Of a stretch of DNA of 40,326 bases, positions 2,756 to 36,590 are shown piece by piece (the first letter of the stretch is position 1; each line of letters begins with the position of its first letter). The stretch comes from Oscillospiraceae bacterium (GTDB lineage: Bacteria > Bacillota > Clostridia > Oscillospirales > Ruminococcaceae): assembly GCA_017848115.1 (NCBI GenBank), contig JAGAKZ010000019.1:1-40326 (forward strand), in the 5' to 3' direction. The translations under genes and the position numbers were made by a program. The notes beneath the pieces are model-generated. The model worked only from the letters and a program-made list of their open reading frames with translations, was not told the DNA's origin and did no database searches.

Positions 2756-2782
2756 GAAAAATCCTAAATTCAGCAGGAGGAA

Positions 2783-4294: not shown

Positions 4295-4308
4295 TAGGAG
4301 TCGGAACT

Positions 4309-4851
4309 ATGAGAATAAGACTGGAACTTTTAGAAGATACTGTTTTTGGTTCAGGACAGAGTGTTCCCGGTGCTGAAGACAGTACGATATTGTATGATGA
4401 CGGAGGATATCCGTATCTTAGAGGTACTACATTCAAAGGGCTTTTAAGAGAAGCTGCAGAAAACTATATATGTTGGACAGGCAGTGACTTCGGTCTGGAT
4501 GAACTTTTCGGAAAAGGCGGAGTTGATATAGAAACAGAACGAAAAGTATATGTTTCTGATTTTGTTATTCCGCAGGAGGTAAAAAAATCTTTTGACGGTT
4601 TTTCAAAGACAGAAATCCATGAGGCGACTACATATATCAGGAACTTTACAAGAATAAATGATGGTGTTGCTGAAGACGGTTCTCTGCGTTCTGTCAGATG
4701 TATAAAAAAAGGTCTGGTATTTTACGGAAATGTAACCTGTTCTGAAAACGACAAAGAATTGTTAAAAGAGATAATTCCAATGATAAAATGGCTCGGATGT
4801 ATGAGAAACAGAGGAATGGGAAAGGTGAATATTACAGTATCGGAGGTATGA
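4309..4851 (+). CDS. Csm3-like RAMP protein, type III backbone subunit
   Basis: A single-domain RAMP (RNA-recognition fold) protein of 180 residues, expected to form part of the crRNA-binding filament. Seen are the RAMP motif LRGTTFKGLLR and a C-terminal glycine-rich loop, RNRGMGK. D24, in GAEDS, sits where Csm3 proteins carry the Asp that cuts target RNA, so this subunit may be catalytic; that is an alignment by eye. I chose ATG 4309 because AGGAG (4296-4300) is well spaced for it; the in-frame ATG at 4291 overlaps the cas10 stop codon and has no proper site. The stop codon overlaps the possible ATG at 4848 of the next gene, so translation is probably coupled. Confidence 0.85.
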   Translation: MRIRLELLEDTVFGSGQSVPGAEDSTILYDDGGYPYLRGTTFKGLLREAAENYICWTGSDFGLDELFGKGGVDIETERKVYVSDFVIPQEVKKSFDGFSKTEIHEATTYIRNFTRINDGVAEDGSLRSVRCIKKGLVFYGNVTCSENDKELLKEIIPMIKWLGCMRNRGMGKVNITVSEV

Positions 4852-4853
4852 AG

Positions 4854-7738: not shown

Positions 7739-7739
7739 G

Positions 7740-8126
7740 ATGCATGAAAAAACATATGCTTCGATGAAAGAAGCTTTTGAAGATTGTGAAAATTACAAAT
7801 TTGCACTTGTATATATGATGAGCAGACTGCTTCTTTGTAAGACTGATGATCTGAAAAATATTGAGTTTGATGAAGTTACAGAAGCTCGTTTTTTCGATGA
7901 AAATGGCGAAAAACATATTTTTGTTAATGAATCATATGAGATATGTTCTGTTTATATAGAAGATACTGCTTTTGAAGGTAAGTATTCAGAAGTGGATAAA
8001 GTATTACTGAGCAAAGATTTTCAAGGTGAAAAAGTATTTGAAAAGCTTGAAGTCAAGATTTATTATGATTATGACGATGACGGTCAGATATACAAGGTTC
8101 TTACCAGATGCTTCAGCGCAGAGTAG
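7740..8126 (+). CDS. Small uncharacterised type III CRISPR-associated protein
   Basis: A 128-residue acidic protein that I do not recognise. It has a helical N-terminal part with a hydrophobic stretch (FALVYMMSRLLL) and then alternating hydrophobic residues suggesting strands, including EARFFDENGEKHIFVNE. It sits between the double RAMP and the large RAMP, the place where III-D loci often carry csx19, but no convincing csx19 signature is visible. A relationship to the small TIGR04423 type III family is possible but unproven, and it does not look like an all-helical Cas11. I chose ATG 7740 because AAAGGGAG lies just upstream; a longer reading would overlap the previous gene by 35 nt. Confidence 0.7.
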   Translation: MHEKTYASMKEAFEDCENYKFALVYMMSRLLLCKTDDLKNIEFDEVTEARFFDENGEKHIFVNESYEICSVYIEDTAFEGKYSEVDKVLLSKDFQGEKVFEKLEVKIYYDYDDDGQIYKVLTRCFSAE

Positions 8127-8141
8127 AGGAGGATTAAACTT

Positions 8142-10130
8142 ATGGAAAACGATAAACTTGCTCCAAAATATGTGGGTGCACCGTATAATTTTGTCGAATT
8201 GAAGGAGAACGTAGCTGTCAGATATGATAGCAGTCAGGAACTTCCTAAACACAATATTATAAGTGATGAACTTGTTTCAGGTGAAATCAGATACACTATA
8301 ACACCCGAAACTGCTATATCTGTAGGAGGAGCAGATGGAAAGAACTTTTACAGAAATGCTGATAAAAAGCTTGCTATACCGGGAAGTACGTTCAGAGGTT
8401 TGATAAGAAATAACGTTCAGATAATAAGTGCCAGTTCTATAGGCGATGATATTGACGACTACAGAATAATGTTCAGAAAGGTTGCAGGTAAGGATGAACC
8501 TTTAAAAAAGGTATATGAAGTTTTTTTAGGTGTAGATGAAGATTTTTTAGGTGTAGAATCCAAAAAAGTCAAATCAGAAAAAACAGGAAAAGTTTCGGCT
8601 GTATCTCTTTGCAGAAAAGTTAAGTCGGGATATATAACTTTCGAAGACGGAAAATATATAATTTATCCTACAGTTAATGACATAAAGGACAAGGATAACA
8701 GAAATTATTTTTATTTAAATTCTGAATATGAATTTGTAAAAAGGCTTCAGCTGTGTAAGGACGGAGAAAAGATCATAACTGATTTGAAAAGTACAGATTA
8801 TGTACCTTTTTATGCAGAGATTTCATATCAGTGTGATAATACAAACAAGACGATCACAAACATAGGGGAAAAAGGGGTTTACTCTCGGAATGGATATCTT
8901 GTTGGTTCAGGAGCTGCGCCGAAGAAAAAAGCATTATATGTTGTTCCGGAAATAGAAAAAAGCAAAGGTGTTATTATTTCGGAGAAGTCGGTCAATTCTT
9001 TTAAGATAGATTTTGAACTTAAGAAAAATCTTCTTGGTACAACAAGTGCAAACAAATCCTCAAATCCTGAAAGTTATATAAAAAGTTATCAGAAATATTT
9101 TTCACTCCCTGAAAAAAATGAGATAAGACCTGTGTTTTATATACCCGAAGGCGAAGATGTGTATTTTGGATATACTCCCTATCTTAGAGTTTTTTATAGA
9201 CACAGTATTGTTGACGGTTTACCTGAAGATCATAAACCTGTACATAAAGATCATGAACCGATGTGGGACTGTGCAAGAGCTATGTTCGGATTTTCAAACA
9301 GAAAAGTATCATACAAGAGCAGAGTATACTTTAGTGATGCAGTATACAGCGGAAATGAAAAAATAGGTAAAGGAAACGTTGTACTTGGTACTCCGAAACC
9401 GAGTAGTTATTATGACTATGTAAAACAAGATTCACAAAATTCAGGGAATATAACTACATATCATGATGATGATTTCAGATTGAGAGGGTTTAAACAGTAC
9501 TGGCTTCGTGATGAGATATATAAAGATAACAAGTCAGTAAAAGATAACGTAGGTTCAGAGTTTGAAACTCTGGAAAAAAATCAGGGACATTTTTCAGGGA
9601 TAATATATTTTAAAAATCTTCATAATGATGAGTTGGGACTTCTTCTGAATGCGCTTGACATGGGTGAAGGATTTAGTCAGAATATAGGAAAAGCAAAACC
9701 ATACGGTTATGGAAGGATAAAAATTACAATAGATTCTATAAGAAAATTTGACCCTGCAAAAATGTACGGTGGTGAGTTTTCTTTTGAACCGTATACTGAG
9801 TATACAAAAAAAGAGATAGAAAATCTCAAAAAAGAAGCTTTTAAGGATAAGGTGATGTCGGCAGCTTTGAGAAAAATGAAAAATGCAAAACTCATTCCTG
9901 ATCCTGAAAAAATCAGATATATGGATATCGAAAAAAAAGAATATCAGAGCAGATGTATACCGCTTCAGACTATAGAACAGCTTGTTGGTAACAATAACAA
10001 CTCTTCTCCTAAAAATACTTCTGAAAAGAAGGTTGAAAAACAAACCGACAGCTCAACCTATGGTAATGTTCCGGCGTATATGAAGGTATGCAAACGAGGC
10101 GAAAAGCGTGGAAACAAATCTAAAAAATAA
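8142..10130 (+). CDS. Large multi-domain RAMP protein, TIGR03986 type
   Basis: A 662-residue RAMP protein of the TIGR03986 type found in type III loci. Recognisable elements are the N-terminal APYNFVEL segment, IPGSTFRG (79-86), a central segment with RAMFGFSNRK and SRVYFSDAVYSG, and the glycine-rich loop PYGYGRI (about 520-526). The C-terminal ~60 residues are Lys/Ser/Asn-rich and probably disordered. It likely forms a backbone or terminal part of the effector. A 21-bp tandem duplication (8522-8557) gives the repeated peptide FLGVDEDFLGVE in a loop. It starts 15 nt after the small gene with AGAGGAGG upstream and is followed 21 nt later by csx1. Confidence 0.83.
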   Translation: MENDKLAPKYVGAPYNFVELKENVAVRYDSSQELPKHNIISDELVSGEIRYTITPETAISVGGADGKNFYRNADKKLAIPGSTFRGLIRNNVQIISASSIGDDIDDYRIMFRKVAGKDEPLKKVYEVFLGVDEDFLGVESKKVKSEKTGKVSAVSLCRKVKSGYITFEDGKYIIYPTVNDIKDKDNRNYFYLNSEYEFVKRLQLCKDGEKIITDLKSTDYVPFYAEISYQCDNTNKTITNIGEKGVYSRNGYLVGSGAAPKKKALYVVPEIEKSKGVIISEKSVNSFKIDFELKKNLLGTTSANKSSNPESYIKSYQKYFSLPEKNEIRPVFYIPEGEDVYFGYTPYLRVFYRHSIVDGLPEDHKPVHKDHEPMWDCARAMFGFSNRKVSYKSRVYFSDAVYSGNEKIGKGNVVLGTPKPSSYYDYVKQDSQNSGNITTYHDDDFRLRGFKQYWLRDEIYKDNKSVKDNVGSEFETLEKNQGHFSGIIYFKNLHNDELGLLLNALDMGEGFSQNIGKAKPYGYGRIKITIDSIRKFDPAKMYGGEFSFEPYTEYTKKEIENLKKEAFKDKVMSAALRKMKNAKLIPDPEKIRYMDIEKKEYQSRCIPLQTIEQLVGNNNNSSPKNTSEKKVEKQTDSSTYGNVPAYMKVCKRGEKRGNKSKK

Positions 10131-10151
10131 TACAATAAGGAAGTAAAAAAC

Positions 10152-11693
10152 ATGAACAAACATTACATAAGCGTACTCGGAACAGGTAATTATCACGAGT
10201 GTACATACGCACTCATTGATGCAAATGATGTAGGAAAACAGATAGATAACAGCAAGATACGCAAAACAAAATACGTTCAGTCAGCGATGTTTGAACTTAT
10301 CTGCAAGGATTTTGATAAAGATGACAGAGTAACTATATTTGTAACTCCCGAATCTAAAAGTAAACACTGGGAGTCTTTAAAAGAGGAACTTGATAAGATC
10401 AACAGTGATCTCAACATTAACTGTGTTATCAAGCCTGTAGATATAAGAGAAGCTCTTAGCGATGAACAGCAGTGGGAAAATTTCAATATCATGTATGACT
10501 GGATAAATGAAGGAGAGGAACTTATAGTAGATGTCACTCATGGTTTCAGAATTCTCCCTATGCAGATTTTCTCGATACTTAGTTATGCAGAAACGTTGAA
10601 AAATATAGTGGTTCGTTGTGTGTACTATGGAATGTTTGAACAGCCCTTCGGTTGTCTTGACGGAAAGTATATTTCGTACGAAGAACTTGACAAGAAATAT
10701 AGAATAGACAGGAACAGATATTCTATAGAAGTCCATAATCCGCTTATCGACTATAAAAATTACCTTACTATATCAAAGCTTAGTAGTGCAGCACACAGTT
10801 TCAAAAATACAGGTGATGCAAAGCTTCTCAAAAAGATATCAACCGAATCCAAAGTAAAAAGATTTAAGGAAAAAGACAATCAGAGATATCAGTCAGAAAA
10901 AGTTATTTTTGAAAAGATCAACAAACTCTGCGAGTCACTTGATGATATATCCGATACTATAAGATGTGCAAGAGGAAGTTATCAGGGTGAAAAGGAGAGA
11001 AGTGTACAGAAGGCTGTAAATATGTACAATTCCCTAAAAAATGAAGGTATCACAGATGTTTTAAATGAAACAGAGGCAATAAAAAATGAAGCTAAGGCAA
11101 TAAAAAATATTGTAAACTATATCGAAAAATTTGTTGATAAATACTTTGAAAATGTCGGTGATGATGCAGATGATCTCGAAACAGGTTTTTCTATAGTAAA
11201 GTGGTGTATATCTTTTGATATAATCCAGACTGGATTTACAGCACTCAGAGAAACTATCATAAGCTGGATATACAGTCTGTGCGATAAGGCGGAACTGAAA
11301 GAACAGTATAGCTTATATCTCAGATATAAAAAGAGTAAAAAGAAAAACTCTGATACGGATACAGAAAATGATTTAGTTTCAGAGGATGATATAAAAGACA
11401 CAGACTTTAATGAACGTGATTTAAGAGAGTTTGTAAACTGGGGATTTGGTATAAAAAACAGCAATCCTGACGGTATTATCAAAGAGGAAAGAGAAATACC
11501 GTTTTATGAATATTTTGCAAATGTTGCAGGAAAAGATAAATGGGACAGCATTTGCAATGTAGCAAAAAAAATCAGAGAATCAAGAAATGATATAAACCAT
11601 TTCGGATTTTCATCTACGGTTTCAAAAACAAACAATCTGAAAAAACATCTGAAAGAATATTATGATGAATTGCTGGAGTTATATAACTCATAA
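10152..11693 (+). CDS. csx1: Csx1-type CARF-HEPN ribonuclease (TM1812 family)
   Basis: A probable cyclic-oligoadenylate-activated RNase closing the cas operon. The N-terminal CARF domain shows VLGTGNYHECTY near the start and DVTHGFR at 127-133, followed by LPMQIF, as expected for the TM1812/Csx1 family. A long helical linker region follows, and the C-terminal HEPN domain carries RNDINH (R478 to H483, R-x4-H). At 513 residues it is in the usual range for the family. The ribosome binding site AAGGAAGT lies just upstream. It is the second of two different CARF-HEPN effectors in this operon, so one Cas10 signal may feed two RNases. No terminator is evident after the gene; the next gene has its own promoter 10 nt downstream. 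Confidence 0.9.
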   Translation: MNKHYISVLGTGNYHECTYALIDANDVGKQIDNSKIRKTKYVQSAMFELICKDFDKDDRVTIFVTPESKSKHWESLKEELDKINSDLNINCVIKPVDIREALSDEQQWENFNIMYDWINEGEELIVDVTHGFRILPMQIFSILSYAETLKNIVVRCVYYGMFEQPFGCLDGKYISYEELDKKYRIDRNRYSIEVHNPLIDYKNYLTISKLSSAAHSFKNTGDAKLLKKISTESKVKRFKEKDNQRYQSEKVIFEKINKLCESLDDISDTIRCARGSYQGEKERSVQKAVNMYNSLKNEGITDVLNETEAIKNEAKAIKNIVNYIEKFVDKYFENVGDDADDLETGFSIVKWCISFDIIQTGFTALRETIISWIYSLCDKAELKEQYSLYLRYKKSKKKNSDTDTENDLVSEDDIKDTDFNERDLREFVNWGFGIKNSNPDGIIKEEREIPFYEYFANVAGKDKWDSICNVAKKIRESRNDINHFGFSSTVSKTNNLKKHLKEYYDELLELYNS

Positions 11694-11731: not shown

Positions 11732-11760
11732 AAAAACATATTGAGCGAAGGGAGAAAACT

Positions 11761-13455
11761 ATGCATTCTTTAAAACGAATACCGGTAGGATTAGAGGACT
11801 TTAAAGAAATAATAGACAAAGGATATTATTTTGTAGATAAGACATTGCTTATAAAAGATATACTTGACGGAAATTCAAAAGTAAGCCTTGTGACACGCCC
11901 CCGTCGTTTCGGAAAAACGCTCAATATGAGTATGATACAGCGTTTTTTTGAAAAAACAGAAGAAAACAACGCATATCTTTTTGAAGGTTTAAAGATAACC
12001 TCTGAAGATAAAAAATACCTTGATCATCAGGGAAAGTATCCTGTTATAACCGTTTCGCTCAAAAGCATGAAACAAAGTTCATATGAATATGCATTTTCAG
12101 AGTGGAAAAATAATGTTATCAGAGAATTTATAAGACATACAGATGTTTTGAGTTCAGAAGAAATTTTACCGTATGAGAGAAAAAGGGTTGAAGCGGTTAT
12201 AGCCGATGAAGCAGATGATGTTGTATATTTTACTGCTTTAAGATTTCTTTCGGAATGTCTGAAAAAATATTATAAAAAAAATGTAATACTCCTCGTTGAC
12301 GAATACGATGTACCGCTCGAAAATGCGTATTTCTGCGGATTTTATGATAAGATGACAGATCTCGTAAGAAGCGTACTTGAAAGTGTACTAAAAACAAATC
12401 CGTCACTTGAATTTGCAGTACTTACAGGTTGTCTGAGAATTTCAAAAGAAAGCATATTTACAGGACTTAACAATCTTGGCGTGTATCCGATAACTGAAAG
12501 CAGATTGTCGGAATATTACGGATTTACGCAGGACGAAGTTGAAAAGATGGCAGAAGAATTTGATCTTTTGGAAAGACTCCCCGAAATGAAAAAATGGTAC
12601 AACGGATATATATTCGGTCAGACAGAAATATACAATCCCTGGAGCATAGTTCAGTATATGGCATCAGCAAATGGCGGAAACAAAATCCCATGCAAGCCGT
12701 ATTGGATAAATACAAGCTCAAACAGTATAATACATCAGCTTATATCACAGTCTGATGAGAAAACGAAAAAGAAGATAGAAGAACTTATGGCAGGAAAAAG
12801 CATAAAAGCACCTGTAAACGAAAATACAGTATATTCTGACATAAACGTAAATAAAGAAGATATCTGGAGTTTTCTTTTGTTTACCGGATACCTCAAACAG
12901 GTTGACAGTGAGTTTAAAAATCTCAGAACATATTCAGAAATGGTCATACCAAACCTTGAAGTTATGACGGTATATGGGCAGACGGTTATGAACTGGTTTG
13001 ATGATATGATAATAAAAGAGAGAACACCGGAGTTGCTTTGTGCATTTATTGAAGAAGATACTCAGAAAGTCCAAAGTGAAATAAACAGATGGTTAAGAAA
13101 AAGCATAAGTTTTTACGACTCTGCCGAAAACTTTTATCATGGATTTCTGTTAGGGGCGCTACTTGGAAATGATGAATATGAAATAAAATCAAATCGTGAA
13201 AACGGAGACGGAAGAACAGATATAACGATTTGTGAGTTCCAGACAAGAAGACTGGGAATCGTCATTGAAATAAAAATAGCAGGAAGTTTTCATGAACTTG
13301 ATAAGATGTGCGATGAAGCACTTATGCAGATCGAAGAAAGGCAATACGGAGAGCAACTGCTTGAAGATTGCTATGAAAAAGTAATAAAATACGGTATTGC
13401 GTTTTGTGGCAAGTCCTGCAAAATAAAGACCGGAAAATCGTTATCATGCTGTTGA
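11761..13455 (+). CDS. AAA-ATPase-like protein with C-terminal PD-(D/E)XK nuclease domain
   Basis: A 564-residue member of the AAA-ATPase-like (PF09820) plus PD-(D/E)XK (DUF1703-type) family, which is multi-copy in gut Clostridia and Bacteroidetes and has no settled function. It shows the family opening IPVGLEDFKEII and YFVDKT, the Walker A RPRRFGKT (46-53), Walker B LLVDEYD with D180/E181, and a C-terminal nuclease signature: D487 in GRTDIT and E503-x-K505 in VIEIK. The ribosome binding site AAGGGAG (11748-11754) supports the start. It follows the type III operon on the same strand but with its own promoter; a defence role is only inferred. A remnant and a truncated copy of the family lie elsewhere in the window. 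Confidence 0.88.
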   Translation: MHSLKRIPVGLEDFKEIIDKGYYFVDKTLLIKDILDGNSKVSLVTRPRRFGKTLNMSMIQRFFEKTEENNAYLFEGLKITSEDKKYLDHQGKYPVITVSLKSMKQSSYEYAFSEWKNNVIREFIRHTDVLSSEEILPYERKRVEAVIADEADDVVYFTALRFLSECLKKYYKKNVILLVDEYDVPLENAYFCGFYDKMTDLVRSVLESVLKTNPSLEFAVLTGCLRISKESIFTGLNNLGVYPITESRLSEYYGFTQDEVEKMAEEFDLLERLPEMKKWYNGYIFGQTEIYNPWSIVQYMASANGGNKIPCKPYWINTSSNSIIHQLISQSDEKTKKKIEELMAGKSIKAPVNENTVYSDINVNKEDIWSFLLFTGYLKQVDSEFKNLRTYSEMVIPNLEVMTVYGQTVMNWFDDMIIKERTPELLCAFIEEDTQKVQSEINRWLRKSISFYDSAENFYHGFLLGALLGNDEYEIKSNRENGDGRTDITICEFQTRRLGIVIEIKIAGSFHELDKMCDEALMQIEERQYGEQLLEDCYEKVIKYGIAFCGKSCKIKTGKSLSCC

Positions 13456-13482
13456 TTTTAAAATATAATATCTGAGAGTTTT

Positions 13483-13531
13483 AATAATGAGATACTAAAT
13501 TGTATTTTGAGTATCTCATTATTTTTTTTGA
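13483..13531 (+). terminator. Terminator after the AAA-ATPase/PD-(D/E)XK gene
   Basis: Perfect 14-bp stem (13483-13496 with 13510-13523), a 13-nt loop and a run of eight or more T. Confidence 0.88.
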
Positions 13532-13714
13532 AAATATCAAAAAAATCAAAAAACTAAAAATATGTTAAGAAAAAATGTTTGTTTACACAAATTAAATATT
13601 CAGATTTTGTTGGATATCTCTAAAACAAGCTTACTTTTTTTAAAATTAAAAATCTTTAAATATAATATTTTAACTTTAAAATCATAAATAAAATAAATTT
13701 ATGAAAAAAATTTG
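13532..13714. other. AT-rich intergenic region upstream of the GH9-type gene
   Basis: No gene is seen in this very AT-rich stretch. The only convincing signals in the 13.5-13.85 kb gap are the bipartite element at 13715-13744 and the GGAGGAAAT ribosome binding site at 13841-13849. Confidence 0.5.
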
Positions 13715-13744
13715 TGTAGCTTTTTTTGTTTTACCGAAGTATTA
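13715..13744 (+). promoter_or_regulatory. Shared bipartite promoter-like element, copy A
   Basis: TGTAGC, a 17-nt T-rich spacer and AGTATTA. The same element with exactly the same spacing occurs at 36205-36234 and 36507-36536. The spacing matches the -35/-10 distance of a promoter, but the boxes do not match the sigma-A consensus. It lies 108 nt before the start codon of the GH9-type gene. An alternative sigma factor or activator site is the likely reading. Confidence 0.55.
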
Positions 13745-13852
13745 ATAATGTAGTTCAGTTTTTAATGCATCTGAATATCTTATAAAAATCTTGAAGGGAT
13801 TTAATGAAAAAAGTTTTTAAAAGTTTTTAAAATTTTGATTGGAGGAAATATT

Positions 13853-16800
13853 ATGTTAAACAAGAAAATCAGAAAAGTTATGGCTTCAGTAATGGCAGTT
13901 GCTCTCCTTGCAGGTTCGGTATCTACACCGGCAGAAAATGTTTTTGCAGGTGAAGTTCTCGGTGAAACCGGTTTTGAAAATAAGTATTTACCGTGGAGAG
14001 GTTTGGAATCTGCTCCGGCAAATCAGAATATATCGGTTGAGGACGGTCAGCTTCATGTGGAGATTCTCAATCCGACAGGTGAATGTTGTGAAAAATGGGA
14101 TCTTCGTACAGAGTACAGAAATATTAAGTTCAAAAAAGGTCATGAATATACTGTATCTTTCAAGGCAAAGTCAAACCGTTCGGGACTTCAGCTCTGTACA
14201 CATATCGGCAATGTCAAAGGCGATGAAGAGTATTTTGTACTCAGTGGAGACAAAATGCAGATGGGTCCTCATATGGACGGACAGTGGGGAAAAGCTGCGG
14301 TTTTAGAAACCGAATATCAGACATTCAGCGGTACTTTTATACCAACAGAAGACATTGAAGGTGCAGTGTGGACTTTCCAGTATGCAAGAGGTACTGTATA
14401 TGAAGGAAATGCACAGTCAGGAGATGAGATATGGTTTGATGATATGTCTATCATTTGTGAAACTTGTGAAGATTGTAATTACAAAGTAAGCAGTACATTC
14501 CCACCGAGTGTTGTAAACCGTGAACGTTCTGCACATACAGATCCGGAAACTTATGCACCTGACGGAAAGCTTATAAATTTCATCTCTGTAAATCAGCTCG
14601 GATATTATTCAGGATTAAAAAAGGTAGCTGTACTTGCTGATAACAAGGGTGATGTTTTCTCAATGACTTCATCGATAGATCTCACTGAAGCATCTTACGA
14701 ATTTGAAGTATGTGATGCTGCGACAGATGAAGTAAAATTTAAGGGTGTATCAGGTGAAGCAATTCAGGATCAAGATTCAGGCGATACTGTATTCAAACTT
14801 GATTTTACAGAGTTTAATGAACCGGGAAAATATTATATAAAAGCAGGCGAGTGGAGATCTTTTGAGTTTGAAATAAGTGACAGCATATATTCATCATCTG
14901 ATAAAAGTTTACTTACTGATGCTTTGAATTATTTCTATCAGAATCGTTCAGGTATTGATATTGATGAAAAATATATAACATCAGGAGAAAAGGCACTGCT
15001 TGCTCATGAAGCTTCACATAAGGTAGATGAAGCTTATATCCAGACAATCAATGGAAATTCATATACGTATTCTAGCAGTATGGACGCTTCAAAAAAATAT
15101 GCATCATCTGTAACTCAGGCATCAGGTGGCTGGTACATGACCGGACAAAATCATTCCAAACAGGTTGTAGTAGGCGGAATATCTGTATGGACTCTTCAGA
15201 ATATGTATGAAAGAGCATCTAAGACAGAATCAGGACGTGATAAATTTGCGGATGGTTCAGGTAAAGTTGTAATTCCTGAAGCAGGAAACAAAGTTCCTGA
15301 TATTCTTGATGAAGCTGCATATGAGATCGACTGGATGACAAATATGGTTGTCAAAGAAGATGAACCTACATGGGGAAAATATGCAGGTATGGTATACAGT
15401 AATCTCAAAGACCATAAATGGACAGGACTTGCAACAAGACCACATGACTACGAAGAAGAATGGGGAACAGTTCGTATAGTTAATCCTCCGACGTTTGATG
15501 CTACGCTTAATTACGTTGCATGTTCTGCTCAGGCAGCGAGACTCTGGCAACCATATGATTCCGAAAAAGCTGCTTATTATTTTGAAAGTGCTAAAAAATC
15601 CTACGAGGCTTATAAAACACACTGGGAAGAAGAATCCGATAATAGAGATTTATATGATTTTGGATATGTTCACAGTGTATCAGCTGCTAAAAGTACTATA
15701 AGCGATGAAGCTTACTGGGCAGCGTGTGAATTGTTTGTGACAGCAAAGACTTTTGAAGATGCTTCTGCTGATGAATACTACAAAGATCTTTCTGCACACA
15801 GCTATGCATTCAATATGCCTACAGCAATTAATATTCCTAATTATGTAGGAACTTCCGCTTCATTGAATGTAGATAGCACAACGACAGCAGGTTCAATGAC
15901 ACTTTATCTTAATAAAGAGTTCCTGCCTGAAAATGATATGAAAAAGCTTGAAGAATCCATAATATCAGCTGCAGATATGTATACAGGTGCAACTGAAGAA
16001 CAGGGATATGGCATACCATATGTATATGATAGTTCCGGTTACAGAGAACCAAATGGCATAGGCGTTTATGTAGTAAAAGGCTATGCAAACTGTTCAAACT
16101 TATTGGTACTGACAAACTCTATGGTTATGGCTTATGCGTATGATATTACAGAAGATGCTAAGTATGTAAACGGTGTAGTATCAGGAATGGATTATATCCT
16201 CGGTACAAATCCGCTCAACTATTCATATATTACAGGTTACGGTGATTACAGCGTTGAAAATCCTAACCACAGATACTGGGCAGCAGAACTTGATAAAACA
16301 CTCCCTTCAGCTCCTGACGGCGTTCTGGTAGGTGGCCCTGATGCAGGACTTCATGATGAATATGTACGTGGTTTAGGTATGACCAGTGAAAAAATCACTA
16401 TTCCTTCGCAGAGATGTTATGTTGATGATATTGAATCATGGTCAACAAACGGTACAGGAATCGATACAAATGCAGCATTGGCATGGGTGGTTTCATTTAT
16501 CGAAGATGAAGCAAAGGCTTATTCAAAAAATGATGGTAATGAAAACAAAACACCTGAAGACAACAAAGATACAACAGATGACGAAAACAAAACACCTGAA
16601 GACAACAAAGATACAACAGATGACGGAAATAAAACACCTGAAGATAACAAGGATACAACAGGTGATAAAGACAAAACACCTGAGGACAACAAAGATGTAA
16701 CAGATAACAAAAACGAAACACCTGAAGACAATAAAGATACATCAGGTGACAGCGATAAAGCTCCCGATAACAACTCACCTGTTGTTGTGCCGACAGCAAC

Positions 16801-17041
16801 TTCAACAAGCAGTATTGCAACAGAAATAATCAATTATGGTGATATGAACGGTGACGGTGAAACAGACCTTTCAGACCTTACTATCCTCAGTCTTCACCTC
16901 ATAGGAGACAAGAAACTTTCAGATAACTTCCTGAAAGCTGCTGATGTATATTATGACGGAGAAGTAAACATAGCTGACCTTGCACATTTCAAACAGTATA
17001 TATGCAAAGAACCAAACGTAGTTCTTGGTGTTCAGAAATAA
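13853..17041 (+). CDS. Secreted CBM-GH9-dockerin protein, probably catalytically inactive
   Basis: A 1,062-residue secreted protein. In order: signal peptide (1-32), CBM4/9-like carbohydrate-binding module (about 35-205), Ig-like CelD N-terminal domain (about 225-330), GH9 (alpha/alpha)6 domain (about 345-890), acidic repeat linker (897-980) and a C-terminal dockerin (about 995-1055). The GH9 fold is well kept (GGISVWTLQN, VPDILDEA, GLATRPHDYEEEWG, CYVDDIESWSTN), but the active site is not. The DAGD motif holding the catalytic base reads MTGQ (429-432), the catalytic acid Glu in STNE is Gly (G867), and the first His of the HHR motif is Asn (N805). It may bind rather than cut cellulose. The start follows GGAGGAAAT at ideal spacing; an upstream in-frame ATG at 13835 lacks one. 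The dockerin indicates cellulosome attachment. Confidence 0.88.
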   Translation: MLNKKIRKVMASVMAVALLAGSVSTPAENVFAGEVLGETGFENKYLPWRGLESAPANQNISVEDGQLHVEILNPTGECCEKWDLRTEYRNIKFKKGHEYTVSFKAKSNRSGLQLCTHIGNVKGDEEYFVLSGDKMQMGPHMDGQWGKAAVLETEYQTFSGTFIPTEDIEGAVWTFQYARGTVYEGNAQSGDEIWFDDMSIICETCEDCNYKVSSTFPPSVVNRERSAHTDPETYAPDGKLINFISVNQLGYYSGLKKVAVLADNKGDVFSMTSSIDLTEASYEFEVCDAATDEVKFKGVSGEAIQDQDSGDTVFKLDFTEFNEPGKYYIKAGEWRSFEFEISDSIYSSSDKSLLTDALNYFYQNRSGIDIDEKYITSGEKALLAHEASHKVDEAYIQTINGNSYTYSSSMDASKKYASSVTQASGGWYMTGQNHSKQVVVGGISVWTLQNMYERASKTESGRDKFADGSGKVVIPEAGNKVPDILDEAAYEIDWMTNMVVKEDEPTWGKYAGMVYSNLKDHKWTGLATRPHDYEEEWGTVRIVNPPTFDATLNYVACSAQAARLWQPYDSEKAAYYFESAKKSYEAYKTHWEEESDNRDLYDFGYVHSVSAAKSTISDEAYWAACELFVTAKTFEDASADEYYKDLSAHSYAFNMPTAINIPNYVGTSASLNVDSTTTAGSMTLYLNKEFLPENDMKKLEESIISAADMYTGATEEQGYGIPYVYDSSGYREPNGIGVYVVKGYANCSNLLVLTNSMVMAYAYDITEDAKYVNGVVSGMDYILGTNPLNYSYITGYGDYSVENPNHRYWAAELDKTLPSAPDGVLVGGPDAGLHDEYVRGLGMTSEKITIPSQRCYVDDIESWSTNGTGIDTNAALAWVVSFIEDEAKAYSKNDGNENKTPEDNKDTTDDENKTPEDNKDTTDDGNKTPEDNKDTTGDKDKTPEDNKDVTDNKNETPEDNKDTSGDSDKAPDNNSPVVVPTATSTSSIATEIINYGDMNGDGETDLSDLTILSLHLIGDKKLSDNFLKAADVYYDGEVNIADLAHFKQYICKEPNVVLGVQK
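16544..16765 (+). repeat. 42-bp tandem repeat encoding the linker of the GH9-type protein
   Basis: Five 14-codon units of the form NKTPEDNKDTTDDE begin at 16544, 16586, 16628, 16670 and 16712, followed by a partial, diverged sixth. The units diverge toward the 3' end. The peptide is an acidic, flexible spacer between catalytic and dockerin modules. Open frames on other strands here are produced by the repeat. Confidence 0.9.
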
Positions 17042-17052
17042 AATAAACTTAT

Positions 17053-17103
17053 AAAACAGATAGAAGACCTGCCCTGAGTGGCAGGTTTTTTATCTGTTTT
17101 TTT
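17053..17103 (+). terminator. Terminator after the GH9-type gene
   Basis: Two nested stems: an inner ACCTGCC/GGCAGGT (17067-17073 with 17080-17086) and an outer AAAACAGATA/TATCTGTTTT (17053-17062 with 17091-17100), followed by T. Confidence 0.88.
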
Positions 17104-17166
17104 AAGAATTTGATAAGAATTTGATAAGGATACGATAAAGAACATTTTTTTGAAATATGGTATACT
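17104..17166 (+). promoter_or_regulatory. Three 11-bp direct repeats before an extended -10 promoter
   Basis: AAGAATTTGAT (17104), AAGAATTTGAT (17115) and AAGGATACGAT (17126) repeat in phase at 11 bp, one helical turn. They are followed by TGG-TATACT (-10 at 17161-17166) with no recognisable -35 box. Head-to-tail repeats with a weak -35 are typical of activation by OmpR-type response regulators. This site is about 170 nt upstream of the exporter operon and probably controls it. Confidence 0.6.
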
Positions 17167-17255
17167 AAAAATACAGTAAAAACAGTAAAGCTATTGAAAG
17201 GAGTGTCTGTATATAGATTTTAGTGTTACATAATGGACATATTTCTTGATAAATA

Positions 17256-17284
17256 TTGACTAATTTTAAAAAATAAGTTATGAT
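17256..17284 (+). promoter_or_regulatory. Second promoter of the exporter operon
   Basis: TTGACT at 17256-17261, 17-nt spacer, TATGAT at 17279-17284. It lies about 50 nt before the first start codon and would give basal expression independent of the direct repeats upstream. Confidence 0.6.
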
Positions 17285-17335
17285 AATAATATGTCATTTT
17301 ATTGATAAAAATTCATAACAAGAAAGGAAAATAAC

Positions 17336-18751
17336 ATGAAGAAAAAACTTTTAAAAGCAATAGCACTTATAGGTGCAAGCTGTATTCTTTTTACAGGGTG
17401 TGATGAATCGGAGGCAGAAACTCTGAAAGTTGCAAATGTTACACCGTACTCCAAAAATGATCTTGAGAAAACCATGATCGTAAACGGTGTTGTAGAGAGT
17501 GCAGTCAAAGATTCTGTTATAACTACAGAACTTACCGAGTATAAGGTAACAGCACTCCATTACAAACTGGGTGACTATGTAAATGCCGGAGATATAGTCT
17601 GCGAACTCGATACTACAGAACTTGAAAAAGAGATAGCAGAACTTGAAAAAGAGATAGCAGATTCTGATGAGCTTTCAAATTACAGATACCAGCAGATGCA
17701 GGAAGGTGTAAGCAAGGCACAAAAACAGGCTGATCTTGATTTACAGGCAGCACAGAAGAAAATAGATGACGAACAGGCAAACCGCGATACGCTTCAGCAA
17801 CAGTATGAAGAAAATATGGCTGCATACAATGAAATGGCTGCCGAGATCGAAAAAATAAGAGAACAGATGAGCGGAGAGCTTACTGAAGAACAAAGAGAAC
17901 TTTATGATCAGCAGTATGCAACAATGATGGAAACTTCCGAGAAGTTTATGATGGCATATGAAACTGCACAGGCACAGATAAGAGAATCAGATTCACAGTT
18001 AGAAATATATAAAAATGCATTTGATTCATTAAAGATAAGAGTAGAAAGCGATATTAATTCTGCAATATTTGAGAGAGATACATATTCACTTCAGGACAAT
18101 GCTTCTACAGAAAAACAGAAGGAACTTGATGAACTTAGAGAAAAACTTGAAAATACAAAAGTAAAAGCTGAAAGAGGCGGAGTTATTTCAAATATCGCTG
18201 TTGAAGTAGGAAAAAAATGCGAATCAGGACTGATAATGACTATTCAGAGTACCGATGATATCTGTATTCACACAGTTATTTCAGAAGAAGATCTGCTTTC
18301 TGTAGAGAGCGGAATGCGTGCAGTAGTTGAAATAAAAGCAAAGTCAGATGAGGAGTTTGAAGGTAAGGTAGACAGAGTACTCGATATAAAAACAAATGAT
18401 GGTTTTGACGGATATATCAAAGTAGATGATACAAAGGATTTTCGTATCGGTATGAATGCAACTGTTGAAATATTCACAATAGATGAAAAAGATGTTTTAT
18501 CAGTATCAAGAACATCTGTATTTAAAAACGATGAAGAACAAGATTGTGTATATAAAGCAACAGAAAATGATGACGGAACATATAAAATCGAAGAAATACC
18601 TGTAGAAACAGGCCTTGAAACTATAAAATATACAGAAGTAAAAAGCAGTGAGCTTTCAGAAGGCGACTATATAGTATCAACTCCTTCAAAATTTGATGAT
18701 GGTGAGATCGTAGAAGTAAAAGTAAAATCCACAGAAAAAGAAGGAGAATAA
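17336..18751 (+). CDS. MacA-like membrane fusion lipoprotein (exporter adaptor 1)
   Basis: A 471-residue adaptor of the HlyD/MacA family, expected to sit outside the cell membrane and connect to a MacB-type ABC permease. It has a lipoprotein signal with lipobox LFTGC (Cys near residue 21), a biotinyl-lipoyl-like half-motif (VTALHYKLGDYVNAGDIVCELD), a long coiled coil (about 90-265, Glu/Gln/Lys-rich), the second lipoyl half (VKAERGGVISNIAVEVGKKC) and beta-barrel and membrane-proximal domains. A short duplication, ELEKEIAELEKEIA, lies at the start of the coiled coil. The ribosome binding site AGAAAGGA supports the start. First gene of a six-gene operon with tight spacing. Confidence 0.88.
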   Translation: MKKKLLKAIALIGASCILFTGCDESEAETLKVANVTPYSKNDLEKTMIVNGVVESAVKDSVITTELTEYKVTALHYKLGDYVNAGDIVCELDTTELEKEIAELEKEIADSDELSNYRYQQMQEGVSKAQKQADLDLQAAQKKIDDEQANRDTLQQQYEENMAAYNEMAAEIEKIREQMSGELTEEQRELYDQQYATMMETSEKFMMAYETAQAQIRESDSQLEIYKNAFDSLKIRVESDINSAIFERDTYSLQDNASTEKQKELDELREKLENTKVKAERGGVISNIAVEVGKKCESGLIMTIQSTDDICIHTVISEEDLLSVESGMRAVVEIKAKSDEEFEGKVDRVLDIKTNDGFDGYIKVDDTKDFRIGMNATVEIFTIDEKDVLSVSRTSVFKNDEEQDCVYKATENDDGTYKIEEIPVETGLETIKYTEVKSSELSEGDYIVSTPSKFDDGEIVEVKVKSTEKEGE

Positions 18752-18756
18752 GTATT

Positions 18757-19476
18757 ATGTCAGATAGCAAAAAGTCCGTAGTAAATATGTCGGGCATAAT
18801 AAAAAGATTTTATATAGGTATGCCAAACGAACTGCAGATATTAAATGGTATAGACCTTGATATAAAAGAGGGCGAATTTGTAGCGATAGTCGGTGAATCA
18901 GGTTCAGGTAAAAGTACGATGATGAATATTATAGGTGCACTTGACAGACCGACAGAAGGAAAATATTTTTTCAACGGCGAGGATATAAGCAAACTCAGCG
19001 ATAAAAAACTCAGTAAGATACGTAACAAGGAAATAGGTTTTGTTTTTCAGAACTTCAATCTCGTTCCAAGAACATCAGCTTTGAAAAATGTCGAGTTACC
19101 TATGATGTACGCAGGAATAAAACGCCGTGAAAGAACAAAGCGTGCAAAAGAACTTTTAAAAACTGTAGGTATGGAAGAACGTTCGGATCACAATCCTAAT
19201 GAACTTTCAGGTGGTCAGAAACAGAGAGTGGCTATAGCAAGAGCAATGGCAAACGATCCTTCAATAATACTTGCCGATGAGCCGACAGGTGCGCTTGATA
19301 CAAAGACAGGGCGTATCGTTATGGATATTTTTCACGAACTTCACCGCTCAGGTAAAACTATAATCCTTATAACACACAGTCCGGAACTTGCAAAGGAAAC
19401 AGAGCGTATCATTACCATTTCAGACGGAAATATAATTTCCGATACTGCCGGAGGTGCTGTAAATGGGGCTGATTGA
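18757..19476 (+). CDS. MacB/LolD-type ABC transporter ATPase
   Basis: A 239-residue ATP-binding subunit. Walker A GESGSGKST, Q-loop FVFQNFNLVP, signature LSGGQKQR, Walker B ILADEPTGALD and switch His in LITHS are all present, so it should be active. The sequence is typical of exporters that work with FtsX-fold permeases. It is the only ATPase of the operon and therefore probably powers both permeases. It starts 5 nt after the adaptor, and its 3' end overlaps the permease start by 14 nt. Confidence 0.95.
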   Translation: MSDSKKSVVNMSGIIKRFYIGMPNELQILNGIDLDIKEGEFVAIVGESGSGKSTMMNIIGALDRPTEGKYFFNGEDISKLSDKKLSKIRNKEIGFVFQNFNLVPRTSALKNVELPMMYAGIKRRERTKRAKELLKTVGMEERSDHNPNELSGGQKQRVAIARAMANDPSIILADEPTGALDTKTGRIVMDIFHELHRSGKTIILITHSPELAKETERIITISDGNIISDTAGGAVNGAD

Positions 19477-20839
19477 GAACATTAGTCAAGCGATAAAAAC
19501 AATAAAATCAAATTCAAAACGTTCTGCACTGACTATGATAGGAATAGTGATCGGTCTTACATCTGTTATAACGATAGTTTCAGCAGGTAGTCTTATATCT
19601 GATATTGTAAACGGCCTTTTATCAAGTATGATAAAAGAAACTTTGATTTCTGTTGAAATTCAATCAGAAAATGATGCTATGTTATATGATGAATCGGAGA
19701 AATATTATCTGACCGAAGATGAGAAAAAAGAATTTGAAGATAACGCTCCCGATAGTATATACGGTGTTTTATCGATTTCATGGAGATTAGAAGGAAAGGT
19801 GTATACTGATAATAGTCATTATTCACTTGCAAGGGTATCTGGTGTATCATCGGCATATTCGCAGCTTCGACAGGTTAATATTACAGAAGGAAGATATCTT
19901 AGCAAAAGTGACTGTGACAAAGCAAGCAACGTTATTGTAATTTCCGATATAGCTGCAAGAAACTGTTTTGGTTCAGAAAAAAATGCTATAGGTAAAACGA
20001 TATCAATAAATCTTAATCAGAACGAAATGAAACAGGAAAAACTGGTATGTGCAGATTGTGTAGTAGTCGGTATATACAAATATGAGGATAAATATGAAAA
20101 GACAAAAAGGATAAATGATATCAGAAACTTTTCGACAGATATGTTTATGCCATACACAACTATGGACAATCTGGTTGTAATGCCAACAAAGCTTTCTCCT
20201 GAACTTTCAAACACATATAGCGTACTTCTTGTAGCGGCAAAAGATTCTGATTCGATCCCTGATGCGATGCGATATATCAATGATTTTATGAGAGACAGAT
20301 TTCCGGGTGATGAGGATTATAGTTATACTTGCAACCAACTTTTACCAGAAGAAGCGCAATCTATGATCGATACTGTTGTGATGGCAATAACTGCAGTGTT
20401 TGTGGCTATAGGAGGTATCTCGCTTGTCGTTGGCGGAATAGGTCTTATGAATACCATGCTTGTAAGCGTAACGGAACGAACAAAGGAAATAGGTATAAAG
20501 AAAGCGCTTGGTGCAAAAAAGAGTACAATAAGATTACAGTTTCTTATTGAATCGGCAACGATATGTCTTATTGCCTGTGCTATAGGTGTATTGGTTTCAT
20601 CTGTTATCTTAACCGTACTTGATACAAAGTTTTATGATCTGATTGATATGGTACCCAAAAAAGTATTATACGGTGATCTCAGATATTATATTGAAAACAC
20701 TGAAATTCATATAGAAGTATCATCGGTAGCCGTTATTGTATCAACATTGTTTTCAGTTGCAGTCGGTGTTATTTTTGGATATTATCCTGCAAACAAGGGT
20801 GCGAAGATGCAGCCTGTAGACGCTTTGAGATATGAATAA
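19463..20839 (+). CDS. MacB-like ABC transporter permease 1
   Basis: A 458-residue FtsX/MacB-type permease: one N-terminal membrane segment (about 22-44, SALTMIGIVIGLTSVITIV), a large extracytoplasmic MacB core domain (about 45-290) and three C-terminal membrane segments with the conserved cytoplasmic loop MLVSVTERTKEIGIKKALGA. It ends in the family-typical VDALRYE. GGAGGT lies upstream inside the ATPase gene, indicating coupled translation. Confidence 0.92.
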   Translation: MGLIENISQAIKTIKSNSKRSALTMIGIVIGLTSVITIVSAGSLISDIVNGLLSSMIKETLISVEIQSENDAMLYDESEKYYLTEDEKKEFEDNAPDSIYGVLSISWRLEGKVYTDNSHYSLARVSGVSSAYSQLRQVNITEGRYLSKSDCDKASNVIVISDIAARNCFGSEKNAIGKTISINLNQNEMKQEKLVCADCVVVGIYKYEDKYEKTKRINDIRNFSTDMFMPYTTMDNLVVMPTKLSPELSNTYSVLLVAAKDSDSIPDAMRYINDFMRDRFPGDEDYSYTCNQLLPEEAQSMIDTVVMAITAVFVAIGGISLVVGGIGLMNTMLVSVTERTKEIGIKKALGAKKSTIRLQFLIESATICLIACAIGVLVSSVILTVLDTKFYDLIDMVPKKVLYGDLRYYIENTEIHIEVSSVAVIVSTLFSVAVGVIFGYYPANKGAKMQPVDALRYE

Positions 20840-20864
20840 AGCAGAAAGGAAAGTCACATAATAA

Positions 20865-22208
20865 ATGAAGACAAAAAAATATAAAAGAAAAAAGAAAATC
20901 ATAAGAAAAATAGTGGCAGGCGTTGCAGTTGTCGCTTTCTTTGGTTGGTTTATCTCGCTTCGTATAAATAATGAGCAGAGTGTGGGTTATGATATGGTTT
21001 TAGCTTATGAAAAACATGACCTCAGCACATATGTAAATGCGTCGGGAACAGTTGTACTGAGTGATTCACAGACTGTATCTGCAGAAGTTACCCAGAAGAT
21101 AAAAAAGCTTAACTTTAAAGTAGGCGATACAGTAAATGAAGGCGATGTTCTCTGTGAATTTGATAGTGAAATGCTTGATGAGCAGATCGCAAGATATGAA
21201 AAACTTATAAATGACGCAAAAACACTTGAGCAGTTACAAGATAATAACGGAGCAAATTCACAGCAGTATGCAAAACAGCTTGCTGATATTTCTGTTGAAA
21301 GTGCAAAGATAGCACTTGATGCCGCACAGAATGAGTATGATACAGCTTATTCAAAATACAGTGAATATTATCAGATATATTATAATTCTACAGATGCTGC
21401 CGAATCTGATCTTTACTATAATATGTACAAACAGTATGAGGCAAGTCTTGAACCATTGAGTTTACAGCTTCAGATGGCGCAGAATGAATATAACAGTGTA
21501 CTTGAACAGAAGACAGAGACGCTTGATCAGATATCGGAAAGCAATTATCTGAAAAAATTTCAGTCATCGGAAATAGAAAAGTATCAGGAAACACTTGATG
21601 AGCTGAAAAGACAGCGTGAGCATATTGTGGTTACAGCACCAAGATCAGGTATAGTTACAGACTGTTATGTAAATGAAGGTTCTTTTACAAATGAAGGTGA
21701 ACTTTTTAAGATAGGTACATTCGGAGATTATAAGGTTGAGGCAGTTATCACCGACAGAGATATACTTAATGTTAAGGTCGGAGATGAGGTTTATTTCACA
21801 ACTGTTCTTACAGGCGATATGGAGATAAGCGGATATATTGAAAGCATTTCAGAATATTTTAATGGCTTTGGTTATTCGGCTACTGTAAAGATTACTGACA
21901 GTGATGCAATGAAACTTTTAAAGCCAAATATAAATACTGCAGTAAGAGTTTATACAAATAAGGCAGATGAGCTTTATTCTGTTGCATATGATGCTATAGA
22001 ACAGGACGAAAACGGAAACAGTTATGTACTAAGAGCAGTTGAAAACGATGGTCAGTTTACAGCTCAGAAGGTTGAAGTGCAGACGGGAATAGAGTCTGAT
22101 TTTTACGTTGAGATAGTTTCTTCCGATCTTAAAGAAGGTGATCTGGTGGTATGCGGTGATAAGGAGCATAAGGCAGGTGACAGAATAAGATTGAGAGGTG
22201 CTGACTAA
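20865..22208 (+). CDS. MacA-like membrane fusion protein (exporter adaptor 2)
   Basis: A 447-residue adaptor related to the first but not its close copy. It has a basic N-terminus and a membrane anchor (about 14-30) instead of a lipobox, a lipoyl half-motif (INFKVGDTVNEGDVLCEFD-like, near 83-100), a coiled coil (about 105-250), the second lipoyl half (VTAPRSGIVTDCYVNEG) and C-terminal beta domains. AGAAAGGAAAG precedes the start. Its stop codon overlaps the start of the second permease by one base (TAATG), so the two are probably partners. Confidence 0.88.
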   Translation: MKTKKYKRKKKIIRKIVAGVAVVAFFGWFISLRINNEQSVGYDMVLAYEKHDLSTYVNASGTVVLSDSQTVSAEVTQKIKKLNFKVGDTVNEGDVLCEFDSEMLDEQIARYEKLINDAKTLEQLQDNNGANSQQYAKQLADISVESAKIALDAAQNEYDTAYSKYSEYYQIYYNSTDAAESDLYYNMYKQYEASLEPLSLQLQMAQNEYNSVLEQKTETLDQISESNYLKKFQSSEIEKYQETLDELKRQREHIVVTAPRSGIVTDCYVNEGSFTNEGELFKIGTFGDYKVEAVITDRDILNVKVGDEVYFTTVLTGDMEISGYIESISEYFNGFGYSATVKITDSDAMKLLKPNINTAVRVYTNKADELYSVAYDAIEQDENGNSYVLRAVENDGQFTAQKVEVQTGIESDFYVEIVSSDLKEGDLVVCGDKEHKAGDRIRLRGAD

Positions 22209-23518
22209 TGAATATATCAGAATATATTTTTTCTGCTGTACGTTGTCTGTCGGCAAGTAAAATGCGTACATTCCTTACTACTCTAGGAATTATTGTCGGC
22301 ATCAGCTCTGTAATTCTTATAAATACACTTGGCGAATCACTCAGCAAAACTATAGAAAATGTTATATATTCGTTGCTTTCAGGAAACGAAGTATATATCA
22401 GTGTAGAGCCTAGTGAAGACAATACCGATGTAGAATATGATGAATACGGATATCCTATATATGACCATGATGTGTATTTTGATCAGCAGACAATTGAAGA
22501 ATATGATAAAATGTATGAGGGACAGATCGAAAGAGTTCTTGATTTTTATGAATATTCGATTAATGGAACAATTCAGACGGATAGCGGAGAAAGCATTAAT
22601 GTCAGTGCTTCTCCTGTTTCTCCTTCATGTCTTAATTATTATGGATTAAAAATAAAAGAAGGACGATTTGTAAGTCATGATGATGTGGATAAGTCACTTT
22701 CGACTATTGTTATAGATCAGAAAGTAGCTAATAAATACTTTGGTGGTGATGCTCTCGGTAAGAAACTTGAAATCAAGTCACAGGACGGTAATGTATATTC
22801 ATTTACAGTTGTAGGTGTGCTTGAGGAATCTGCTGAGGATGTTATGATGGGAATGTCTTCGGAAAGTAGTCCGTCAAGGCTCTATATACCATACACATGT
22901 GGTCTGGATATAAACCAGATTTCGCTTGAAAATTTTGCGTTTAATTATATCGACTATTCTATAAAGAATATAGAAGATGAAGAACAGTTCAAGGAAGATA
23001 CCGAGGAATATTTTGATGCTGTTTTTGAAGGAACCGGTTTTGAAACCGAAGTTACTTTTCTAACAGATAATATTAAAACTATCGATAAAATAATAGATAT
23101 CATAACAACTGTAATAGCTGTTATAGCTGCTGTTTCTCTGCTGGTAGGCGGTATAGGTGTAATGAATGTAATGCTCGTAAGCGTAACAGAAAGAACTATG
23201 GAAATAGGTGTACGTAAAGCGATGGGAGCAGAAAATAAATCTATATGTATACAGTTTATAATTGAGTCAATAATCATATCATTGATAGGTTCGGTTCTCG
23301 GCATAATCTGGGGACTTATGCAGTCGAAAATACTTGCCATTGCTGTTGTAAAGCTGACTTCGGATCTCCCTGTAGCGATTACTGTTGAGCTTGCAGTTCC
23401 GTATGGCTGGATAATCGGAGCAGTAATATTCTCATTTGCAGTAGGTATAATTTTTGGCGTTTATCCGGCATACAAGGCATCTAAAATGGAGGTAGTCGAT
23501 GCACTCAGATATGAATAA
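22208..23518 (+). CDS. MacB-like ABC transporter permease 2
   Basis: A 436-residue FtsX/MacB-type permease with the same layout as permease 1: N-terminal membrane segment (about 18-40), acidic extracytoplasmic domain, and three C-terminal membrane segments around MLVSVTERTMEIGVRKAMGA, ending VVDALRYE. It has no ATPase of its own and probably shares the one at 18.8 kb, either as a heteromer with permease 1 or as a second complex. Its last 20 bases contain the start of the next gene, whose GGAGGT site also lies inside this gene. Confidence 0.92.
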   Translation: MNISEYIFSAVRCLSASKMRTFLTTLGIIVGISSVILINTLGESLSKTIENVIYSLLSGNEVYISVEPSEDNTDVEYDEYGYPIYDHDVYFDQQTIEEYDKMYEGQIERVLDFYEYSINGTIQTDSGESINVSASPVSPSCLNYYGLKIKEGRFVSHDDVDKSLSTIVIDQKVANKYFGGDALGKKLEIKSQDGNVYSFTVVGVLEESAEDVMMGMSSESSPSRLYIPYTCGLDINQISLENFAFNYIDYSIKNIEDEEQFKEDTEEYFDAVFEGTGFETEVTFLTDNIKTIDKIIDIITTVIAVIAAVSLLVGGIGVMNVMLVSVTERTMEIGVRKAMGAENKSICIQFIIESIIISLIGSVLGIIWGLMQSKILAIAVVKLTSDLPVAITVELAVPYGWIIGAVIFSFAVGIIFGVYPAYKASKMEVVDALRYE

Positions 23519-36077: not shown

Positions 36078-36144
36078 AAGAAACACCTCACAAAATATTC
36101 AGTTATTCACTTTTAGCTATAAAATATATGCTGGTTATGTAATA

Positions 36145-36536: not shown

Positions 36537-36590
36537 TTATTGTAAATACATTTTTTATAAAATATTTGAATTGAAAGGGAATGATTGGAT

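Follow-up and report, generated by a model that had tools for sequence, protein, structure and literature searches.

Does a gene that keeps every module of a cellulosomal cellulase, with the residues that should cut the substrate replaced, represent a decaying enzyme or a protein maintained for another task? The question is raised by a gene located at 13853-17041 (+ strand) of the window, the whole 40,326-nucleotide stretch from a rumen Oscillospiraceae bacterium analysed here (contig JAGAKZ010000019.1 of assembly GCA_017848115.1), which is C10 among the 108 contigs of a 3.34-Mb genome. The encoded protein belongs to glycoside hydrolase family 9 (GH9) and is related to CbhA and CelK, the GH9 cellobiohydrolases of Clostridium thermocellum. 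It is almost certainly a catalytically dead member of this type, and its dockerin probably attaches the secreted protein to the cellulosome. Degenerate copies of the same type occur in four genera of one bacterial family; a maintained non-catalytic function is well supported for this degenerate group and no more than likely for the window's own copy.

The gene is a single open frame with an ATG start and 1062 codons, and translation of this open reading frame (ORF) gives a degenerate CbhA-type GH9 protein of 1062 residues that ends in a dockerin. All its parts are on the + strand. A putative signal peptide (residues ~1-32; 13853-13948), recognised by eye from a basic start and a hydrophobic stretch, is followed by a family 4 carbohydrate-binding module (CBM4; Pfam CBM_4_9, residues 37-176; 13961-14380), a CelD_N immunoglobulin (Ig)-like module (Pfam, residues 244-333; 14582-14851), the GH9 module (Pfam, residues 352-880; 14906-16492), a repetitive acidic linker (residues ~891-990; 16523-16822) that has a different repeat number in the ortholog described below, and a type I dockerin (Pfam Dockerin_1, residues 995-1050; 16835-17002). 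The match to the GH9 profile PF00759 reaches 212.6 bits (cut-off 27.7) and covers profile positions 3-444 of 444, a full-length match that places the protein in the family by homology; Dockerin_1 is matched at 42.2 bits (cut-off 22.9). The score against NCBIfam NF049990 (CbhA/CelK cellobiohydrolase) is 400 bits, below the curated cut-off of 1700. The module order CBM4-Ig-GH9-dockerin is that of CbhA and CelK, CbhA having also X1 and CBM3 modules. The window protein shares this order and differs from both enzymes by the absence of the catalytic residues and of any X1 or CBM3 module. The host genome displays 13 GH9, 13 cohesin and 142 dockerin matches, and the dockerin, together with the cohesin-bearing scaffoldins of the genome, classes the protein as cellulosomal, its dockerin-cohesin pairing being predicted.

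The best solved match is CbhA of C. thermocellum (1ut9 and 1rq5, E 8e-82). Alignment with these structures and with 128 intact relatives reveals that the window protein has substitutions at the two aspartates, at the acid Glu and at the first His of HHR. The DAGD base motif is replaced by MTGQN (residues 429-433; 15137-15151), with one residue inserted; because of this insertion, the counterpart of the second Asp is N433 or Q432, both of them non-acidic. HHR is replaced by NHR (residues 805-807; 16265-16273), and the acid Glu by G867 (16451-16453), which turns STNE into STNG. The module set and the changes MTGQ (429-432), N805 and G867 are therefore as the initial annotation had described them, and the alignment with GH9 structures that it had proposed as a check bears out the loss of the catalytic residues. 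It had counted three independent catalytic sites, whereas all three are parts of one active site. Both features of a GH9 enzyme, the Asp pair and the acid Glu, are missing, and the protein is an enzyme homolog without catalytic residues, that is, a pseudoenzyme. In the exo-acting GH9 enzyme VC0615, the Asp pair comprises the base and a water-coordinating residue and Glu is the acid, according to PMC6096475, which also names a complex of the CbhA mutant E795Q. The VC0615 construct sequence given there contains a similarly spaced DASGD with both Asp present, so the insertion by itself would not inactivate the site, whereas the absence of the acids should. Also replaced are Y437, W673, W746 and W872, four residues that do not vary among the close active relatives (37 aligned rows); W746 has become Asn (16088-16090), and we infer that W746 and W872 would line the substrate cleft. 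The protein almost certainly would fold as a GH9 barrel devoid of GH9 hydrolase activity.

That the protein still cuts, by means of catalytic residues located elsewhere or on another substrate, is very improbable. The fold is kept at the sequence level and, among 35 degenerate relatives, five keep the Glu with other changes and one more alters only HHR, which would be compatible with residual cutting; against this, the three acids are all gone in the window copy and the conserved aromatics are gone too. D871, adjacent to the former Glu position, has ordinary counterparts in other GH9 proteins of the genome (DYNA), and the replacing residues vary from lineage to lineage, unlike what would be expected of one new active site.

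An assembly error is ruled out because identical changes are found at this locus in a second Ruminococcus metagenome-assembled genome (MAG). The nearest public record, Ruminococcus sp. SIG549 (SVNW01000053), is collinear with the window from 11750 to 22411 at ~98%, except for an assembly gap and the linker repeats. The ortholog occupies the corresponding position, flanked by an AAA-ATPase-like gene on one side and a MacB-type transporter set on the other, and its readable pieces show MTGQ, NHR and STNG. An apparent frameshift in the G003 ortholog was rejected, being a run of N (L044, 3172-3271) with overlapping ends.

The phenomenon extends beyond what the initial annotation had seen. The search for relatives that it had suggested has recovered, besides the identical changes in the second MAG, 168 CbhA-type GH9 sequences from one bacterial family, of which 128 are intact, 35 degenerate and 5 incomplete. 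They come from 11 genomes of the window's genus, 247 genomes of the family and three further genera (38, 11 and 30 genomes). This set is not a random sample and its degenerate counts are lower bounds: the searches scored part of the candidates per genome (e.g. 5 in the 247-genome search, 20 in the 38-genome search and 26 in the 30-genome search), and matches were retrieved completely in the 247-genome search and in that of the further genus with 11 genomes, for 34 of 56 in the 38-genome search and for 47 of 49 in the 30-genome search. Fragments were dropped at two alignment steps (10 and 3 sequences), and identical or contained sequences were merged. All 11 genomes searched in the window's genus have relatives and at least six of them have a degenerate copy, a seventh (G010) having a partial one (L032). 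A degenerate copy is present in at least 13 of 30 genomes of the genus g108, where G320 has besides a partial one (L195), in at least one of 11 genomes of g6, and in G167 of a fourth genus; the two partial copies are not counted among the 35. None of the 38 genomes of g29 gave a degenerate copy among the 34 of 56 matches retrieved, which does not imply absence. Of the 20 genomes with a degenerate copy that were compared, 18 also have an intact copy in the set (none for G297 and G309), often in tandem. The window's own genome illustrates this arrangement on contig C6, where three tandem paralogs consist of one intact copy (DAGD/HHR/STNE) and two copies with STNS and YHK or YHR. The intact C6 copy (L046:6597-9629) has the architecture of the window protein and is 61% identical to it.

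The Asp motif, HHR and Glu are all altered in 23 of the 35 degenerate copies, six keep both Asp and have lost the Glu, and four keep the Glu with the Asp motif and HHR altered; one copy alters only HHR (DSGD/YHK/VNE) and another only the Asp motif (EAGD/HHR/VNE). Copies from sister species include ESGD/LHS/STND, ESSG/NHW/TNG, ESAS or ESGS with NHR, and EAGG/YHR/VNS. Nine degenerate proteins were scanned with Pfam: GH9, Ig and Dockerin_1 together are above cut-off in seven and CBM_4_9 in eight. The degenerate copies L205 and L210 (g108) have C termini that resemble divergent dockerins, with no Dockerin_1 match at E<=0.001. L112 (G167, contig C9) has AASD/HHK/VNE and Tyr in place of W746, and stands on a family branch far from the main group.

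Residue 746 (consensus GYxWGSN) separates the two classes in the family alignment: it is Trp in 128/128 intact copies and in 0/35 degenerate ones, 22 of which have Tyr or Phe. Since related sequences are not independent, this split represents fewer events than sequences. In the 33 degenerate copies retained for retention counts and half-domain trees (L222 and L112 being excluded), W872 is kept in 8, Y437 in 8 and W673 in 16, and W446, Y621, Y719, Y771, Y781 and W878 are kept in all 33. The degenerate copies keep on average 72.8% of the GH9-invariant positions and the window protein 73.3%, compared with a mean of 98.9% (lowest 93.8%) in the 37 active relatives by leave-one-out. When the degenerate copies are pooled, invariant positions within 10 residues of the catalytic ones (these being excluded) are lost in 40% of cases versus 22% elsewhere. 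Ig-invariant positions are kept at 98.8% in active copies, 95.1% in degenerate copies and 100% in the window protein. Two further positions are shared by degenerate copies of two genera: I753 is changed in 33/33 (to Leu in 26) and I870 in 32/33 (to Leu in 31), which fits a common origin or convergence. In the CBM4, C51 and H176 are invariant in 36/36 active close relatives and replaced or absent in 31/33 and 30/33 degenerate copies, respectively, an alteration of the binding module that accompanies the loss of GH9 catalysis.

Selection was estimated from omega, the ratio of nonsynonymous to synonymous divergence, as pairwise Nei-Gojobori counts obtained with our own script, which models neither transition bias nor recombination. 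In several degenerate lineages, the strength of purifying selection is similar to that in active copies. The GH9 omega of active pairs is 0.12-0.28; that of the degenerate LHS/STND trio is 0.286, 0.255 and 0.086, and the other degenerate comparisons give 0.108 for the ESAS/ESGS pair (synonymous divergence, dS, near saturation), 0.289 for the RNL pair (partial), 0.262 for the NAED pair and 0.344 for NAAD/ESAD. One of the degenerate C6 copies, compared between G000 and G003, has an omega of 0.133 (4 synonymous and 2 nonsynonymous changes).

Other observations weigh against a maintained function, chiefly for the window's own copy, which is a weaker case than the group. Between this copy and its ortholog, the GH9 module has 5 synonymous and 15 nonsynonymous changes (omega 0.82) and neutrality is not rejected (binomial p 0.79). 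This module also evolves differently from that of the active C6 copy (p 0.011, or 0.029 without the change cluster at codons 593-612) and is not distinguishable from the two degenerate C6 copies taken together (p 0.38), the second of which has an omega of 0.546 between G000 and G003 (10 synonymous and 20 nonsynonymous changes). The losses of the window protein are not significantly denser within 10 residues of the catalytic residues, these being excluded from the count (12/41 vs 43/174, p 0.55). Conservation of the CBM4 is reduced as well, with 97.3% of its invariant positions kept in active copies, 80.6% in degenerate copies and 73.5% in the window protein. Finally, it is possible that the DSGD/YHK/VNE and EAGD/HHR/VNE copies keep some activity.

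These values bear on the alternative of a decaying gene, in which catalysis has been lost, the GH9 module drifts, and the frame is whole since little time has passed or since only the CBM4, Ig and dockerin modules are useful. The window copy has an omega of 0.11 in the Ig module and 0.10 in the dockerin, far below the 0.82 of its GH9 module, whose ratio of synonymous to nonsynonymous changes departs from that of the rest of the protein (Fisher p 0.010). According to a simple simulation, the probability that a neutral GH9 frame has acquired no stop is 0.30 at a distance of 0.014, 0.024 at 0.042 and 0.0005 at 0.08. One degenerate copy of g108 (L211, on contig C44 of G314) contains one in-frame TAA, which indicates that some degenerate copies do decay. 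On the other hand, the window gene has diverged from its nearest active paralog by a proportion of synonymous differences (pS) of 0.54-0.81 depending on the segment (0.35-0.62 between the active copies of G000 and G001), yet it has acquired no stop or frameshift. This near-saturated divergence implies that the frame has been under selection for most of its history, and catalysis may have been lost late in that history. The ortholog is intact except for the assembly gap, and other degenerate lineages are clearly constrained. In addition, dS is uneven along the window gene (0.14-0.17 in the Ig and dockerin modules, 0.014 in GH9), which hints at recombination and weakens the contrast between GH9 and the rest. 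Taken with this evidence, decay of the window gene is an unlikely explanation. The initial annotation had argued for maintenance from the unbroken frame: maintenance is supported for the group, where the GH9 omega is 0.09-0.34, and the argument from the frame is weak for the window's own copy, in view of its 5 synonymous and 15 nonsynonymous changes and the 0.30 probability of a stop-free frame under neutrality.

We infer that the window gene goes back to a duplicated active CbhA-type gene, one copy of which then lost catalysis. The whole-domain tree (76 rows, motif columns removed) needs seven changes between intact and degenerate states, and a single degenerate clade is rejected (p 0.0004) in a tree built for the close clade from 34 rows, 16 degenerate and four outgroup rows among them. 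The two halves of the domain give different pictures. With residues 236-600, a single clade of the 33 degenerate copies is rejected (p 0.0008) and four changes are needed; with residues 601-862, 32 of the 33, from two genera, fall into one group (SH-aLRT 97) with two changes, and one clade of all 33 is not rejected (p 0.18). Several branches of these trees are long. By these trees the number of origins is two to seven, reflecting either one old loss with mixed gene halves or several losses. Recent gene conversion between active and dead copies was considered as a cause of the mosaic trees and is unsupported, synonymous divergence being equally high in the N- and C-terminal halves; ancient conversion is beyond this test because synonymous sites are near saturation. 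The C-terminal grouping of 32 of the 33 dead copies leaves room for a single ancestor, ancient and already dead, with later mixing of its N-terminal half with active copies. It is possible, though doubtful, that the dead CbhA-type GH9 proteins form an old and diversifying set in several genera of gut cellulosome bacteria, the active site having been lost by many different routes with retention of the fold, of the CBM4 aromatics and in most cases of the dockerin. In such a set the barrel would serve as a variable lectin-like recognition module with different clefts, carried by the cellulosome beside an intact enzyme.

For the role of the window protein itself, we regard as a fair contender, although somewhat short of an even one, a non-catalytic subunit that would touch plant polysaccharide through its CBM4, perhaps also through a remodelled surface of GH9, while the dockerin would place it among active enzymes. 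The protein would be secreted and held in the cellulosome by its dockerin, the CBM4 would contact the polysaccharide, and the non-cutting GH9 barrel could act as a spacer, a contact surface or a remodelled binding site, by analogy with CttA, a cellulosomal expansin and CtCE2. Among the roles put forward initially, presentation in the cellulosome is in keeping with the dockerin. The CBM4 retains 13 of the 14 aromatics conserved in >=85% of active copies and could plausibly bind cellulose, whereas such binding is doubtful for a GH9 cleft deprived of invariant tryptophans; nothing in the analysis supports sensing. CttA of Ruminococcus flavefaciens is described in PMC2721979 as a non-catalytic dockerin protein with cellulose-binding modules. 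The proposed window protein would be alike in being cellulosome-linked, non-catalytic and CBM-bearing. To our knowledge, CttA is not derived from a glycoside hydrolase, unlike the window protein. The cellulosomal expansin of C. clariflavum (PMC4788839) and CtCE2 (PMC2661963) likewise put an enzyme-like site or fold to a non-catalytic use on plant wall polymers; their folds are different from GH9, and CtCE2 has its catalytic residues kept.

A disrupting or regulating pseudoenzyme, which would loosen cellulose without cutting in the manner of an expansin, or would compete with or guide its active sister, is improbable. The presence of intact and degenerate copies together in 18 of 20 genomes, often in tandem, is in its favour, as are the precedents of the cellulosomal expansin (PMC4788839) and of the influential GH28 pseudoenzymes of beetles (PMC6549527). 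The latter are inactive copies kept beside active ones, in a eukaryote, with another fold and outside any cellulosome. Against it, the window gene lies apart from its active sister, and the folds of the precedents differ from that of GH9.

Closer in architecture is R. flavefaciens FD-1, which has five CBM4-GH9 proteins (PMC2721979) and for which one CBM4-IgX-GH9-Doc protein is listed (PMC2930009). The latter protein has the architecture of the window protein, the likeness being one of module description and not of sequence. The term "catalytic residue" is absent from the main texts of PMC2721979 and PMC2930009. Pseudoenzymes of glycoside hydrolase families are known already; dead GH9 cellulosome subunits are apparently undescribed, as no report of one was recognised in the literature on inactive or pseudoenzyme GH9 or on dockerin proteins, covered mostly not as full texts and with supplements excluded.

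Concerning the surroundings of the gene, the mechanical ORF opens earlier, at TTG 13835, and a likely ribosome-binding site, GGAGG, is read in the sequence at 13841-13845 (+). A hairpin 3' of the gene (17067-17086), listed on the - strand only and followed by a T run read on the + strand, is a possible terminator. Directly upstream, 11761-13452 (+) encodes an AAA-ATPase_like and PDDEXK_9 protein with no PADLOC match. The region 1070-11690 (+) contains a type III-D-like CRISPR effector set (PADLOC), with a CARF-HEPN protein, a Cas10d-like protein, several Cas7/Cas5 IIId proteins and a Csx1-like protein. The end 1-1061 of the SIG549 locus (L066), outside the shared block, has no match to the window. 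Two other dockerin proteins are encoded downstream: one at 34386-36086 (-), with an N terminus that is pectate lyase-like by eye and only the dockerin matching Pfam (E<=0.001), and a 1113-residue protein with BspA-type leucine-rich repeats at 36585-39923 (+).

Genome surveys commonly count GH9 modules as cellulases. In this non-random set, the GH9 site is damaged in 35 of 168 sequences (about one fifth), so a count based on annotation alone can exceed the true cellulase content of this gut-bacterial family. Should the dead copies prove to bind or remodel cellulose, they would form a natural series of binding modules derived from glycosidases. They would also offer a case in which evolution from enzyme to pseudoenzyme can be tested within a multi-enzyme machine, with the intact sister gene as a built-in control. 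Our results suggest that some gut fibre-degraders reuse worn-out cellulases for a non-cutting job.

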